Notes under the pieces: generated by a model
Databases searched by the model: none
Told to the model about the DNA's origin: nothing
What the model saw: only the letters and a program-made list of their open reading frames with translations
Part shown: positions 1,957 through 6,752 of the stretch, one piece after another
Layout: each line of letters starts with the position of its first letter
Position numbering within the stretch: position 1 is the stretch's first letter
NCBI RefSeq assembly: GCF_030407495.1
Contig: NZ_JASDDG010000027.1
Span: 1 to 64,000, forward strand
Length of the DNA stretch: 64,000 nucleotides
Direction: 5' to 3'
Source of the DNA: Arthrobacter sp. APC 3897
GTDB lineage: Bacteria > Actinomycetota > Actinomycetes > Actinomycetales > Micrococcaceae
Program-made: the position numbers and the translations under genes

Positions 1957-3057
1957 TCAGCCGGCCGGCCCGAACAGGCGGCGGAGAATCACCGCTGCCG
2001 GCTCTTGCGCAGCATGCCGGAACCCTGTGCCGGCCCACAGGCTAACGGCTTCCTGGTTGCCCGCCGCTGCGGCGGCGGCCCGCAGCGGACCGGTGATGTG
2101 GTTGACGTACGGGTAGGCGTCCGGGGCATCCGGATAAGCTCGCATGAAGTCATTGGTCAGTCCCCTGGCCGGGCGGCCGGAGAAGGCCCGGGTCAGCGAT
2201 GTGACAGGATCCCTGCGGCCCTGCGCGGCATCCGTCAACGCGGAGCGGTGCACCCTGCTGGTCCCGGCTTCGTTGCTGAGCAGGAGCAGGGTTCCCACTT
2301 GGACGGCATCTGCTCCGGCTGCCCGGGCGGCAGAAGCGTCCTCCGGCGTGGAAATCCCTCCTGCGGCAACCAGCGGGAGCGGGCAGGCCTGCCGAACCTG
2401 AACCAACAGATCAGCCAGCGGGGCCTCCCCCGGCGGTTTTCCGCTGTCGAGGGTTCCCCGGTGTCCGCCCGCCTCAGGCCCCTGTACACACAGAATGTCC
2501 GCTCCGGCCTCGGCCGCCGCGCGGGCCTCCCCGGCATCGGTGACCGTCACCACGCTGCAGATTCCCTGTGCGGCGAGCTCCGCAAAGATCGCCGGTTCCG
2601 GCAGACCAAAGGTGAAAGACACTACCGGGACCCGCTCCCGAAGGATCAGTGCCAGCTTGGCCTGCCAGCCGTCGTCGTCGTTTGGATCCGGTATACCGGG
2701 TTCGGTAATCGTGGCTCCGTCAGGAGCCGGCCCTTCCGCTGCAGTCAGGCGGTCACGGAAAGTCCGGGCCGCTTCGATTCTTCGGGCCCGGGCTGCGGCC
2801 TTCCCCGCCTGATTCTGCTCGGCCGCCGGGTAGGTGCCGGCAGCATCCGGAACGAAGAGATTCACGCCGAAGGGCCCCGCGCTGAGCCTGCGCAGCCGGG
2901 TGATCTGGTCCGCCACGGCTGAGGCATCCTTGTAGCCGGCGGCCAGGAAGCCGAGCCCGCCGGCCTCCCCTGCTGCGGCAGCCAGCTCCGGGGTGGAAGG
3001 CCCTCCGGCCATGGGGGCGCCAATGACCGGAAGGGCGAGGGAGTCCAGGGTGAACAC
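1957..3057 (-). CDS. Nitronate monooxygenase (2-nitropropane dioxygenase family)
   Basis: FMN-dependent TIM-barrel enzyme that oxidises alkyl nitronates such as propionate 3-nitronate. The N-terminus LALPVIGAPMAGG is the classic start of the barrel, EAGGHRG carries the likely catalytic histidine, and AAGGISTPEDA followed by GADAVQVGT forms the FMN phosphate site. From a GTG at 3057 the length is 366 residues, normal for the family. Longer starts (up to 3144) would run back into the phzF-like gene and add non-homologous sequence, so the GTG is preferred. It lies 10 bp after the stop of the phzF-like gene on the same strand, so the two are almost certainly co-transcribed. The physiological substrate is not evident. 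Confidence 0.88.
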   Translation of the reverse strand: MFTLDSLALPVIGAPMAGGPSTPELAAAAGEAGGLGFLAAGYKDASAVADQITRLRRLSAGPFGVNLFVPDAAGTYPAAEQNQAGKAAARARRIEAARTFRDRLTAAEGPAPDGATITEPGIPDPNDDDGWQAKLALILRERVPVVSFTFGLPEPAIFAELAAQGICSVVTVTDAGEARAAAEAGADILCVQGPEAGGHRGTLDSGKPPGEAPLADLLVQVRQACPLPLVAAGGISTPEDASAARAAGADAVQVGTLLLLSNEAGTSRVHRSALTDAAQGRRDPVTSLTRAFSGRPARGLTNDFMRAYPDAPDAYPYVNHITGPLRAAAAAAGNQEAVSLWAGTGFRHAAQEPAAVILRRLFGPAG

Positions 3058-3067
3058 AGTGCCCGCT

Positions 3068-3904
3068 TTACAGTGTGACGGTGCCGTCAATGCAGGTGAC
3101 GGTGGAACCGCCCACCCAGATCTTGCCGTCCCGGGTGAAAACACGGACCCGCCCGGAACGCTGGACGGCAGTGCCCTGGGTAACCACGTACCGCTCCGGC
3201 GCCAGTGAGGCGCCGATCAGCCACTGGGCCAGACCGGCATTGAGGCTGCCGGTGACCGGATCCTCCCGGACCCCGAGGTCCGGCACAAAGGCCCGCACCT
3301 CAAAGTCCGTTTCCGCGTCCGCGGGCTGCGCACCAATAACCCCGACCCGCAGCTTGCCCATGACCGCGGGGTCCGGGTTAAGCCCCAGAACGGTTGCGGC
3401 GTCGGGCAGCAGCAGCCCCAGCCAGCCCGGTCCGTTGTCGATCCAGTTGGAGGCAAGGACCTCCCCCGGCTCCAGGCCCAGCGCCCGCGTAGCCTGGTCC
3501 AGGACGTCGTCCTCCAGCTCACCGGAGCGCAGCAGGGGCGGTGCGGCAAACGCGGCAATGCCGGCATTGGCGTGCAGCGTCACCAATCCGATCCCGCATT
3601 CCTGGACAACCACGTCGGGGTACCGGCGCTTGGCCCCGGACTCCAGCCAGGCGTGGCACGTTCCCAGCGTGGGGTGTCCCGCAAACGGAATCTCGCCGCC
3701 GGGAGTGAAGATCCGGACCCGGTAGTCGGCTCCGTCCACGGTGGGCGGCAGGACGAAGGTCGTCTCGGAAAGATTGGTCCACCGCGCATACGACGCCATC
3801 TCGGCGTCCGTCATCCCTTCCGCTTCGAGCACCACTGCCAGTGGGTTGCCCAAATAGGGCTCACTGCCGAATACGTCTACCTGCTTAAACCAGCGCTGTT
3901 TCAT
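3068..3904 (-). CDS. PhzF family isomerase/epimerase-like protein
   Basis: 278-residue protein of the PhzF/diaminopimelate-epimerase-like fold. The N-terminus KQVDVFGSEPYLGNPLAVV is the family signature, and LSETTFVLPP places the catalytic glutamate at residue 47. FTPGGEIPFAGHPTLG and the C-terminal DLGVREDPVTGSLNAGLAQW are the other conserved blocks. No phenazine genes are nearby, so this is a stand-alone PhzF-like protein whose substrate cannot be read from sequence. It is the first gene of a two-gene unit with the nitronate monooxygenase. The riboswitch-controlled flavin reductase lies upstream on the opposite strand. Confidence 0.9.
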   Translation of the reverse strand: MKQRWFKQVDVFGSEPYLGNPLAVVLEAEGMTDAEMASYARWTNLSETTFVLPPTVDGADYRVRIFTPGGEIPFAGHPTLGTCHAWLESGAKRRYPDVVVQECGIGLVTLHANAGIAAFAAPPLLRSGELEDDVLDQATRALGLEPGEVLASNWIDNGPGWLGLLLPDAATVLGLNPDPAVMGKLRVGVIGAQPADAETDFEVRAFVPDLGVREDPVTGSLNAGLAQWLIGASLAPERYVVTQGTAVQRSGRVRVFTRDGKIWVGGSTVTCIDGTVTL

Positions 3905-4007
3905 TCTGGAAACTGTATCGCGTCAAACGCGCGGGTTTTATGAAGCGGAGTTTACGAACTGTGGCAGGGGTTTGTATCCCGATGCCTCCCCGCCTAGGTT
4001 GGAGCAA

Positions 4008-4088
4008 GAATCAAGAGTTCCAGCCACGGGCCCTGGCCGGCTGGACGGCAACCCTCTCGCCGTAGCGGGGTGCTCCAGGTGACGATTC
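4008..4088 (+). ncRNA. SAM riboswitch, SAM-IV / SAM-I-IV variant type
   Basis: The leader of the flavin reductase gene carries the core of an S-adenosylmethionine aptamer. P1 pairs GAATC (4008-4012) with GATTC (4084-4088). P2 pairs CCAGCC (4020-4025) with GGCTGG (4039-4044). This is followed by the conserved joining segment CGGCAACCCTC, a P3 hairpin closed by CCC/GGG with GCGGGGTGC on its 3' side, and the closing CAGGTGA before P1. This order and these conserved bases match the SAM-IV family known in Actinomycetales. The aptamer ends 92 nt before the coding sequence. No T-tract terminator is seen in between, so control is more likely translational. Motif recognition is by eye, not by covariance model. 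Confidence 0.85.
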
Positions 4089-4180
4089 GGCCGTCCGTAT
4101 TCCACCCGGTCCGGCAAGTACCGCGCTTCGCTTCCGCACTTTTGGGTTGCGGGCGCTTGAGGCAGAGGATCTATTTGAGC

Positions 4181-4687
4181 ATGGCACTTTTGACCGACCT
4201 TCAGCCCGCTGCACTGCGGCAGGCCTTCTCCCGCTTTCCGTCCGGCGTAGCCGCCCTGTGCGCGGTCATTGACGGGCAGCCGCAGGGTCTCGTGGCTTCG
4301 TCTTTCACCGTGGGCGTCTCCATGGATCCGCCGCTGGTGATGTTTGCCGTGCAGAACACGTCCCGCACCTGGCCGGTACTGCGGAGCGCAGCCCGGATTG
4401 GCGTGTCGGTGCTGGGCTCCGGTCATGAGGGCGTCTGCAGGCAGATTGCGTCCAAGGACGGGGACCGCTTTACCGGCCTGGAGCTGCACACCGACGAGTC
4501 CGGATCACTGTTCCTGGACCGGGCCGCCCTCTGGCTTGAATGCTCAGTGGAGAATGAGGTGCCCGCGGGCGACCACTGCGTGGTGCTGCTCCGCGTTCAC
4601 GGGCACGCTTCGCATGACGACGCGCATGAACCGCTGGTCTTCCACGGCTCGGCTTTCCGGCACCTGAGCGTCCCCGAGTTCGCCTGA
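4181..4687 (+). CDS. Flavin reductase family protein (FMN-binding split barrel)
   Basis: 168-residue NAD(P)H:flavin oxidoreductase-like protein. LRQAFSRFPSGVAALCAV followed by GLVASSFTVGVSMDPPLVMFAV is the canonical flavin reductase N-terminal half, and a terminal HLSVPEF is typical. Such proteins usually supply reduced FMN/FAD to a two-component monooxygenase. A TTG at 4175 is an alternative start and lies closer to the GAGGA ribosome site at 4165-4169; the ATG at 4181 is used here. The gene stands alone behind a SAM-type riboswitch, which suggests a role in methionine or organosulfur metabolism. No partner monooxygenase lies next to it. Confidence 0.87.
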   Translation: MALLTDLQPAALRQAFSRFPSGVAALCAVIDGQPQGLVASSFTVGVSMDPPLVMFAVQNTSRTWPVLRSAARIGVSVLGSGHEGVCRQIASKDGDRFTGLELHTDESGSLFLDRAALWLECSVENEVPAGDHCVVLLRVHGHASHDDAHEPLVFHGSAFRHLSVPEFA

Positions 4688-4826
4688 CCCGCGGGCCCGG
4701 CCCAGCCCGGGTTCCTCCCCCGCCGGTTCCCTCCGCTTTGGGAAATCCCTGCCGTGGCGAACCGGTCTTTTTCCCACAACGGAGCGAACCGGACAATCGG
4801 GGACAAAACGGAAGATATGAACCGGG

Positions 4827-4859
4827 GAAGCCCGGCCGTCACTATGGCGGCCGGGCTTC
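4827..4859. terminator. Bidirectional intrinsic terminator between flavin reductase and aspS
   Basis: Perfect 12-bp inverted repeat GAAGCCCGGCCG / CGGCCGGGCTTC with a 9-nt loop, placed between the convergent flavin reductase and aspS genes. No long T-tract follows on either strand, as is common in high-GC actinobacteria. Confidence 0.75.
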
Positions 4860-4967
4860 GTGCTGTCCGGGTTTACCTCCGGTGTTTCCCGTCCCGTTTC
4901 CTCCGTTTCCGGTGGTGCCGGTGAACCTGTGTCAGGGACCCGCCGGGCTGTGTGCCCGCCGGGACGC

Positions 4968-6752
4968 TTAGCTTTCCTGCGGCTTGTCCTGCTTCTTCTC
5001 CGGCTTGAAGTCAACGCCGGCTTCCTTGCGCTGCTGGGCCGTGATCGGAGCCGGTGCGGCGGTCAGCGGGTCGTAGCCGCCGCCGGACTTCGGGAAGGCA
5101 ATGACGTCGCGGATGGAATCGCTGCCGGCGAGCAGTGCCACCACGCGGTCCCAGCCAAAGGCGATGCCGCCGTGGGGCGGTGCGCCGTACTTGAATCCTT
5201 CAAGCAGGAAGCCGAACTTCTCCTGTGCGTCTTCCTGTGAAAGGCCCATCACCTTGAAGACGCGTTCCTGCACATCGCGCTGGTGGATACGGATGGAGCC
5301 GCCGCCGATTTCGTTGCCGTTGCAGACAATGTCGTACGCGTAGGCCAGGGCCGATGCGGGATCCGTGTCGAAGGTGTCCATGAACTCGGGCTTCGGCGAG
5401 GTGAAGGCGTGGTGAACCGCGGTCCAGGCACCGCCGCCCACAGCTACGTCGCCCGCGGCAACAGCTGCGGAAGCCGGCTCGAACATGGGGGCGTCAACAA
5501 CCCAGACAAACGCCCAGTCGTTCGGATCGATCAGGCCCGTGCGGTGGCCGATCTCCACGCGGGCTGCGCCGAGAAGTGCGCGTGCCTCGGTCTTTTCGCC
5601 TGCACCGAAGAAGATGCAGTCGCCGGGGTTGGCGCCTACCTTGTCAGCAAGGTTTTCGCGCTCGAAGTCGGTGAGGTTCTTGGCAACGGGACCGGTCAGG
5701 GTGCCGTCTTCCTGCACCAGCACGTAGGCCAGGCCCTTGGCACCGCGCTGCTTGGCCCATTCCTGCCAGGCATCGAGGGTGCGGCGCGCCTGCGAGGCAC
5801 CACCGGGCATGACGACGGCGCCCACGTAGGGTGCCTGGAACACGCGGAAGGTGGTGTCCTTGAAGAACTCGGTGAGTTCGGTCAGTTCCAGGCCGAAACG
5901 CAGATCCGGCTTGTCTGAGCCGTAGCGGGCCATGGCATCCGCGTAGGTCATGCGCGGGATCGGCGTGGTGATGTCGACGTCGATCAGTTTCCACAGCGCC
6001 TTCACCACGGCCTCGCCGAGCGCGATGATGTCATCTTCCTCGACGAAGCTGGCTTCGATGTCCAGCTGGGTGAACTCCGGCTGGCGGTCCGCGCGGAAGT
6101 CTTCGTCGCGGTAGCAGCGGGCAATCTGGTAGTACTTTTCGAATCCGCCCACCTGCAGCAGCTGCTTGAACAGCTGGGGTGACTGCGGCAGGGCGTACCA
6201 GGAGCCCGGAGCCAGACGCGCGGGAACCACGAAGTCGCGGGCGCCCTCGGGGGTGGAACGCGTCAGCGTGGGCGTCTCAATTTCCACGTAGCCTTCGTCG
6301 TGCAGCAGGTTGCGGGCCACGCGGTTGGCTTCGGAGCGCAGGCGCATGTTCCGTGCGGGTGCAGGACGGCGCAGGTCCAGGTAGCGGTGCTTCAGGCGGG
6401 CTTCTTCGCCAACCTCCACGTGCTCGTCAATCTGGAACGGCAGCGGGTCGGAGGTGTTCAGGACCACCACGTCGTCAGCGATGATTTCCACTTCACCGGT
6501 GGCCAGTGAAGGGTTTTCATTGCCTTCCGGACGCTTCTGCACGGTGCCGGTGATCTGGAGAACGTATTCGTTGCGCAGTCCGTGGAAGACGTCCTCTTCG
6601 CGAACCACCACCTGGGCCACTCCGGAGGCATCCCGGAGGTCAAGGAAGGCCACGCCGCCGTGGTCCCGGCGTCGGGCCACCCAGCCAGCGAGGGTGACGG
6701 TCTGTCCAATATGCTCGGCCCTCAGGGAACCAAGGGCATGAGTGCGCAGCAC
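4968..6752 (-). CDS. aspS: Aspartyl-tRNA synthetase
   Basis: Class IIb aminoacyl-tRNA synthetase charging tRNA-Asp in the cytoplasm. The 594-residue protein has the bacterial layout: N-terminal OB anticodon-binding domain (about residues 1-110, with the typical opening LRTHALGSL), class II motif 2 [20 protein letters not shown], the bacterial GAD insertion domain in the middle, and motif 3 [13 protein letters not shown] near the C-terminus. Its length is normal. Bacteria lacking asparaginyl-tRNA synthetase usually have a non-discriminating form that feeds GatCAB; that question cannot be settled from this window. It is monocistronic and divergent from the APC permease. Confidence 0.97.

Follow-up and report, generated by a model that had tools for sequence, protein, structure and literature searches.

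In the window (the whole 64-kb stretch of Arthrobacter sp. APC 3897 DNA that was analysed), a SAM-IV riboswitch aptamer lies upstream of a flavin reductase gene on the same strand, with a spacing of 54 nt between the end of the aptamer and the start of the gene. The aptamer was the sole gathering-level Rfam match when the whole window was searched with cmscan, and the same segment also scored 88.0 bits with R2, a model built from 22 other SAM-IV leaders (the genes downstream of 20 of these 22 are unchecked). The features of the locus are as follows.

4009-4126, plus strand: SAM-IV riboswitch aptamer (RF00634; 83.0 bits, cut-off 38, E 2.6e-13, full model 1-116)
4009-4012, plus strand: 5' strand of P1, AAUC, with its partner GAUU at 4084-4087; identical in 56 of 56 aligned reductase leaders
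4047-4056, plus strand: conserved core GGCAACCCTC, by direct reading, in agreement with the model consensus
4059-4064, plus strand: pseudoknot strand in the P3 loop, GCCGUA, with its partner UACCGC at 4119-4124; five of six pairs, one C-C mismatch
4076-4082, plus strand: conserved CAGGTGA segment, by direct reading
4164-4169, plus strand: likely ribosome-binding site AGAGGA, by direct reading
4181-4687, plus strand: flavin reductase (PF01613), DszD-like, 168 aa, ATG start; PF01613 108.3 bits over residues 16-162
1957-3144, minus strand: nitronate monooxygenase-like gene (PF03060), two genes away from the reductase

The SAM-IV class is an OFF switch at high SAM, and the loop-tail pseudoknot is its defining feature. 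The window leader resembles the class in score, in helices P1-P3 and the 3' hairpin, in the core sequences, in the loop-tail pseudoknot and in its position within a 5' leader, while its target gene, a flavin reductase, sets it apart. An earlier note on this DNA had proposed a SAM-IV-type riboswitch with the P1, P2 and P3 pairings and the two conserved segments listed above; all of these strands and segments are present in the 4009-4126 leader, and the RF00634 score, more than twice its threshold, bears the proposal out. A chance match was ruled out because score, conservation and covariation are too strong. Judged from its sequence, the window RNA is a further member of this known riboswitch class.

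Free-energy folding of the leader neither recovered the aptamer nor gave a clear expression platform (z -0.30 and 0.19), and a simple scan found no terminator between the aptamer and the start codon, the three sites in 3850-5000 all lying elsewhere. The lack of a terminator in this interval makes control at translation initiation or through Rho more likely. For a SAM-IV leader of Streptomyces clavuligerus, a premature transcript is reported in the accessible part of PMC8269248.

The reductase gene has an alternative in-frame start, TTG at 4175, and the nearest solved chain to its product by sequence is 3pft, DszD of Mycobacterium goodii (165.5 bits). Its AlphaFold model has a mean pLDDT of 84.1, and Foldseek ranked DszD of M. 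goodii first (48-49% identity), followed by an NADH-FMN oxidoreductase of M. avium, both within 48-51%; most of the nearest structures are reductases that serve two-component monooxygenases. No NCBIfam equivalog cut-off was reached among the seven families listed (HsaB, HpaC, FerA, StyB and RutF among them), the best score being 106.7 bits against the HsaB cut-off of 230. The 4181-4687 protein is best described as a putative NAD(P)H:FMN reductase, predicted to reduce the flavin and to transfer it to a monooxygenase. The neighbouring genes (a PhzF-like gene, the nitronate monooxygenase-like gene and aspartate--tRNA ligase) all lie on the minus strand, and none of them was recognised as a two-component oxygenase. 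To our knowledge, members of the nitronate monooxygenase family (PF03060) need no separate flavin reductase, and for this reason the gene at 1957-3144 was not taken as the partner. The word 'lone' used for the reductase in the earlier note therefore fits the locus, where no oxygenase partner adjoins, but not the genome, which has six PF01613 domains in all.

Conservation and covariation of the reductase leaders

A close orthologue of the reductase (E below 1e-70) was present in 17 of 29 Arthrobacter genomes, counting the source genome, and in all 17 a SAM-IV leader lies on the same strand 48-82 nt upstream; the other 12 genomes hold distant reductase homologues only. Across the family, a reductase match at E<=1e-30 was found in 69 of 120 genomes and 21 of 32 genera. 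Model R2 detected the aptamer in front of 68 of 81 family reductase loci (the 17 of the genus plus 64 of the 71 other matches at E<=1e-30, seven lower-scoring ones being left out). These leaders are spread over 16 of the 21 genera, which rules out a leader peculiar to one genome. The Rfam model placed SAM-IV no more than 400 bp from the reductase in 29 of 30 family genomes, all chosen among the reductase-positive ones. A scan of named genomes gave SAM-IV in front of 26 of the best 80 of 440 reductase-homologue loci, these 26 belonging to Arthrobacter in the broad sense, Glutamicibacter, Citricoccus, Micrococcus terreus, Pseudoglutamicibacter, Auritidibacter and Yaniella. Among the same best 80 of 440, SAM-IV was not seen before the homologues of Rhodococcus, Mycobacterium, Kineococcus, Curtobacterium, Microbacterium and Amycolatopsis, the upstream sequence of one Rhodococcus locus (L278) being covered for only 133 nt. 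On a quick tree of 142 reductases, in which 59 of 139 inner branches are open, aptamer presence takes three changes. The chromosome of Glutamicibacter creatinolyticus carries two reductase copies (L231 and L235), each with its own SAM-IV leader.

Covariation was examined in 56 of the 68 leaders. In this alignment, which was fitted to the model and favours structure, 95.6% of 1669 cells were paired. Double changes occurred in 17 of 30 pairs, and doubly changed cells numbered 218 against 65.6 in shuffles; the covariation score was 0.375 against 0.145 shuffled, with 0 of 500 shuffles as good. Sliding the partners by 1-3 columns lowered the paired cells to 27-50%. Because P1 is invariant in the 56-leader set, it falls outside the covariation test. 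Five or six of the six pseudoknot pairs were formed in 48 of the 56 leaders, and 25 distinct pseudoknot combinations gave 117 of 150 pairs against 105.2 shuffled (3 of 5000 shuffles as good). Conservation of the paired bases in orthologous leaders, which the earlier note had named as a check, was thus found together with covariation.

The sequence of P1 differs between sets of leaders. Whereas the reductase leaders carry AAUC/GAUU without exception, 21 of the 22 leaders from which R2 was built (the same set with 20 downstream genes unchecked) carry GGUC/GACC. Among 25 leaders with inspected downstream genes, minus two weak variants, the sole metY leader starts with GGUC; the other 22 (one reductase, three metQ-like genes and 18 monooxygenase operons) start with AAUC or GAUC, apart from one UGUC.

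SAM-IV leaders of the source genome and a DmoA-like monooxygenase

Five SAM-IV matches were found in the source genome. Besides the reductase leader, they are the following.

Before metY-metX: SAM-IV leader, 124.7 bits
Contig C58, before an NtaA/DmoA-family monooxygenase gene: SAM-IV leader, 96.3 bits
Contig C23 (L067:9293-9416), minus strand: weak SAM-IV variant before a small ORF of no family
Contig C5 (L068:7865-8003), minus strand: weak SAM-IV variant before a small ORF of no family

The two weak variants score 68.2 and 44.8 bits. Weak matches of this kind (39-69 bits) occur twice in 27 of the 29 genus genomes and once in the other two. A P1 strand CUUC and a core GTTCGGATGA were seen in 16 of 17 weak variants fetched from relatives (L305-L321). 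The genes behind them include PIN-like small ORFs (by reading, with no family match), unknown ORFs and an oligopeptide/nickel-type binding protein; in G009 and G016 a gene lies 19 nt behind the weak variant, and that of G009 is a weak match to methionine synthase. By these sequence features the weak variants resemble a separate subgroup, possibly a distinct SAM-riboswitch subclass. In Arthrobacter sp. H41 (L227:2545-2940), two SAM-IV-type leaders occupy opposite strands back to back. One belongs to the reductase; the other is a CUUC variant (2545-2675, minus strand) before an ABC substrate-binding protein.

The protein encoded behind the C58 leader scored 567.5 bits with TIGR03860 (NtaA/DmoA family) against a cut-off of 279.7. 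Its nearest solved relative is dimethyl-sulfide monooxygenase (DmoA, 6ak1; 582 bits, aligned over 452 residues), followed by the alkane monooxygenase 3b9n (494 bits). The organosulfur partner suggested in the earlier note agrees with this relationship, while the substrates it gave as examples, sulfonate and dimethylsulfone, are not the best match. The accessible part of PMC9259527 cites Hammers 2020 for a DmoB of Arthrobacter globiformis. No PF01613 match was found on contig C58; with a lone reductase in the window, the two lone halves could therefore complement each other. About 1.2 kb beyond the SAM-IV leader of the DmoA-like gene and divergent from it, with one unknown ORF between, an ABC ATPase is encoded (L065:10842-11735, plus strand), for which the best model is an aliphatic-sulfonate one, below its cut-off.

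Orthologues of the C58 protein (at least 82% identity) are confined to the 17 of 29 genus genomes that have the reductase, and each of the 17 holds one. SAM-IV precedes the match by 31-101 nt in 16 of the 17, the exception being G014. SfnB/DszC-type genes (TIGR04022, E<=1e-50) were present in all 17 reductase-positive genus genomes and in one of the 12 others. We rejected counting the split of 17/17 against 0/12 as many independent cases, because the absence of the reductase in the genus amounts to one change on a tree of the metY region. The shared distribution of the reductase and the DmoA-like gene within the genus is thus weak evidence of partnership; the single gain or loss event involves loci that are far apart. 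In one congener (G023, C1:1714810-1715312), the reductase match is split into two overlapping parts, residues 1-130 and residues 128-168, and the match of the DmoA-like gene covers residues 12-359 only, as broken genes or sequencing errors would give.

Monooxygenase genes and SAM-IV leaders across the family

Among the 120 family genomes, 54 carry the reductase together with a DmoA-like gene scoring 700 bits or more, 15 have just the reductase, seven just the monooxygenase and 44 neither, which corresponds to an odds ratio of 22.6 without correction for phylogeny. Counted by genus (32 in all), both genes occur in 17, the reductase only in four, the monooxygenase only in one and neither in 10; in two of the 17 (g10 and g32) the two genes sit in different genomes. 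Three of the seven genomes with the monooxygenase only (G059, G130 and G140) have SAM-IV before it and no reductase match at E<=1e-30. Outside the genus, SAM-IV was present in the examined stretch at only four of 40 DmoA-like loci, within about 200 nt at three and about 4.5 kb upstream at one; at one further DmoA-like locus (G088) it lies 4.3 kb upstream, beyond the examined stretch.

The 30 chosen family genomes hold 124 SAM-IV matches, 29 of them before the reductase and 95 elsewhere. An NtaA/DmoA-type gene (TIGR03860, E<=1e-90) or SfnB/DszC-type gene (TIGR04022, E<=1e-50) follows 18 of the 95 (14 genomes) on the same strand within 6 kb, where uniform placement in 3.6 Mb would give about 0.5; the remaining 77 have no such monooxygenase within 6 kb. 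Leader-monooxygenase pairs with the gene downstream on the same strand numbered 28 (20 SfnB/DszC and eight NtaA/DmoA), against one in any other arrangement. Ten proteins of the acyl-CoA-dehydrogenase fold from six genomes (two of them congeners) were classified; nine of them are encoded behind a leader and the tenth (L294) immediately before one. The best NCBIfam family was SfnB (TIGR04022) or DszC (NF043015) for all ten, at scores below the equivalog cut-offs (226-295 bits against 431, and 85-273 against 850, respectively), which indicates kin rather than proven members. For one of these proteins the nearest solved chains are methanesulfinate monooxygenase and DszC.

Single loci in relatives bring the same elements together. 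In G032 (L293), one strand carries SAM-IV, an MFS-type transporter, an NtaA/DmoA monooxygenase, SAM-IV and the reductase, in this order. At L295, L297 and L298, SAM-IV is followed by monooxygenases of both folds, and in two congeners (L299 and L300) by three genes with MetQ, MetN and MetI as best families, below cut-offs. An SfnB/DszC-type gene lies 294 nt behind the reductase in G062. Adjacency is also seen at loci without a leader. Among the 13 leaderless family loci, the reductase immediately follows an NtaA/DmoA-type gene at L116, L117 and L118, but not at L119, a locus from the same genus. A tblastn search with two queries found an NtaA/DmoA-type gene at eight of the best 80 of 440 named loci, all eight of them leaderless (out of 54 such loci), while the 26 loci with a leader gave none; at three of the eight (L223, L224 and L226) the reductase was checked as lying directly behind this gene. 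For the leaderless lineage on the reductase tree, six of seven examined loci have the reductase directly behind a monooxygenase gene.

One reductase and its candidate partners

We consider it probable, from comparison of sequences, that the window encodes a SAM-repressed stand-alone FMN reductase shared by unlinked organosulfur-scavenging monooxygenases, in the manner of DszD or MsuE. With SAM plentiful, the aptamer would bind it and close, and expression of the reductase would fall, as expected from the behavior of the class. With SAM in short supply, and hence methionine and sulfur, the reductase would be made and would provide FMNH2 to several unlinked FMNH2-dependent monooxygenases, which may free sulfite or thiols from organic sulfur for conversion to methionine via metX/metY. 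The C58 DmoA-like monooxygenase with its own SAM-IV leader is the clearest partner candidate in the source genome, and in relatives the DszC/SfnB-like and other NtaA/DmoA-family genes behind further SAM-IV leaders may play this part. SAM-IV would bring these dispersed genes under common control with the synthesis and uptake of methionine, as a single regulon, presumably by acting on translation initiation or through Rho. The earlier note had already placed the enzyme in methionine or organosulfur metabolism and had it feed reduced FMN to a distant monooxygenase. The comparison supports this placement through an unlinked, SAM-IV-led DmoA-like gene of the same distribution and, in relatives, through DszC/SfnB- and NtaA/DmoA-like genes behind SAM-IV and the adjacency of reductase and monooxygenase in some of them.

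Several observations nevertheless weigh against a shared reductase. The reductase occurs without a DmoA-like gene (700 bits or more) in 15 of the 120 family genomes and the DmoA-like gene without the reductase in seven, among them G059, G130 and G140 with their SAM-IV-led monooxygenases. Within the examined stretch, SAM-IV is found at only 4/40 DmoA-like loci outside the genus, and 77/95 other leaders have no such monooxygenase within 6 kb. The five other PF01613 domains of the genome could do the job, the window pseudoknot contains a mismatch, no NCBIfam equivalog cut-off was passed, and the distribution shared at genus level comes down to one tree change.

The reductase could instead be the DmoB of a split dimethyl-sulfide (DMS) monooxygenase with the DmoA-like enzyme as its single dedicated partner, all other links being incidental. 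Such a pair would fit the identical distribution in the 29 genus genomes with SAM-IV on both genes in 16 of 17, as well as the excess of family genomes with both genes or neither (54 and 44 of 120; odds ratio not corrected for phylogeny) and the corresponding 17 and 10 of 32 genera, g10 and g32 included although their two genes are in different genomes. For Hyphomicrobium, source of the best-studied DMS monooxygenase, the DmoB gene was moreover described as uncharacterised in 2022 (accessible part of PMC9259527). However, four genera (g12, g20, g21 and g27) have the reductase without a DmoA-like gene at 700 bits or more, and the leader is kept in g12 and g21, although g12 has relatives at 580-592 bits. 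Furthermore, SAM-IV is followed by SfnB/DszC-type genes no less often than by NtaA/DmoA-type genes (20 and eight downstream pairs within 6 kb, respectively), and it is an SfnB/DszC-type gene that follows the reductase in G062. On balance, we regard a single dedicated partner as unlikely.

Somewhat less probable still is that the co-occurrence reflects dispensable scavenging genes gained or lost together, with the reductase serving a different oxygenase. One event is enough for the genus pattern, and six PF01613 domains are present in the genome, but loss alone would not be expected to produce a shared riboswitch class, the G032 arrangement in which both halves are adjacent and each has its own SAM-IV leader, or reductase genes directly behind monooxygenase genes. 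Least probable is that the reductase acts directly in making methionine, for instance by activating the cobalamin of methionine synthase through reduction, and not in sulfur scavenging. The riboswitch class is indeed common to metY-metX and, in two congeners, a metQNI-like transporter. Yet the 12 of 29 congeners without the reductase retain the top-scoring leader with its downstream gene unchanged, most of the nearest structures are two-component monooxygenase reductases, and some relatives have monooxygenases as adjacent genes.

The shared reductase that we favor has two known counterparts. DszD of M. goodii (3pft), from dibenzothiophene desulfurisation, is the nearest solved structure and likewise consists of one PF01613-type domain; it feeds reduced flavin to DszC, according to the accessible part of PMC13352529. 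The window reductase differs in that the Rhodococcus, Mycobacterium and other-family homologues among the best 80 of 440 loci are without SAM-IV, and in that its partner candidates are DmoA-like and SfnB/DszC-like, with no dsz operon. MsuE of Acinetobacter baylyi is alike by role, since one reductase powers the monooxygenases of DMS assimilation and many organosulfur monooxygenases (accessible part of PMC13352529). That article includes a section on regulation by sulfur availability, and the difference from the window system is that the word 'riboswitch' is absent from its main text. The aptamer class is already known, whereas the literature open to searching, which excludes the founding SAM-IV paper and Hammers 2020, yielded no report that ties SAM-IV to a shared reductase and to organosulfur monooxygenases.

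A broader reading, possible in our view but well short of probable, is a two-tier SAM-controlled sulfur economy, so far in Micrococcaceae only. One riboswitch on a common reductase would gate dispersed sulfur-releasing monooxygenases, including those without a riboswitch of their own, and the SAM-IV copies would be graded through P1, with GGUC/GACC for methionine biosynthesis and AAUC/GAUU or GAUC/GAUC, which have fewer G-C pairs, for the reductase, methionine-uptake and scavenging operons. Through this grading, scavenging and synthesis might respond at different SAM levels. The leader would have been gained about once on the reductase tree (three changes in all) and lost in the lineage that has the reductase behind a monooxygenase gene.

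Flavin reductases are often encoded apart from the monooxygenases that they serve, as here. When unlinked genes share one riboswitch class, a likely reductase and its likely partners can be picked out together, and both become open to experiment. Organosulfur scavenging also joins the processes that seem to be under SAM riboswitch control in soil actinobacteria.
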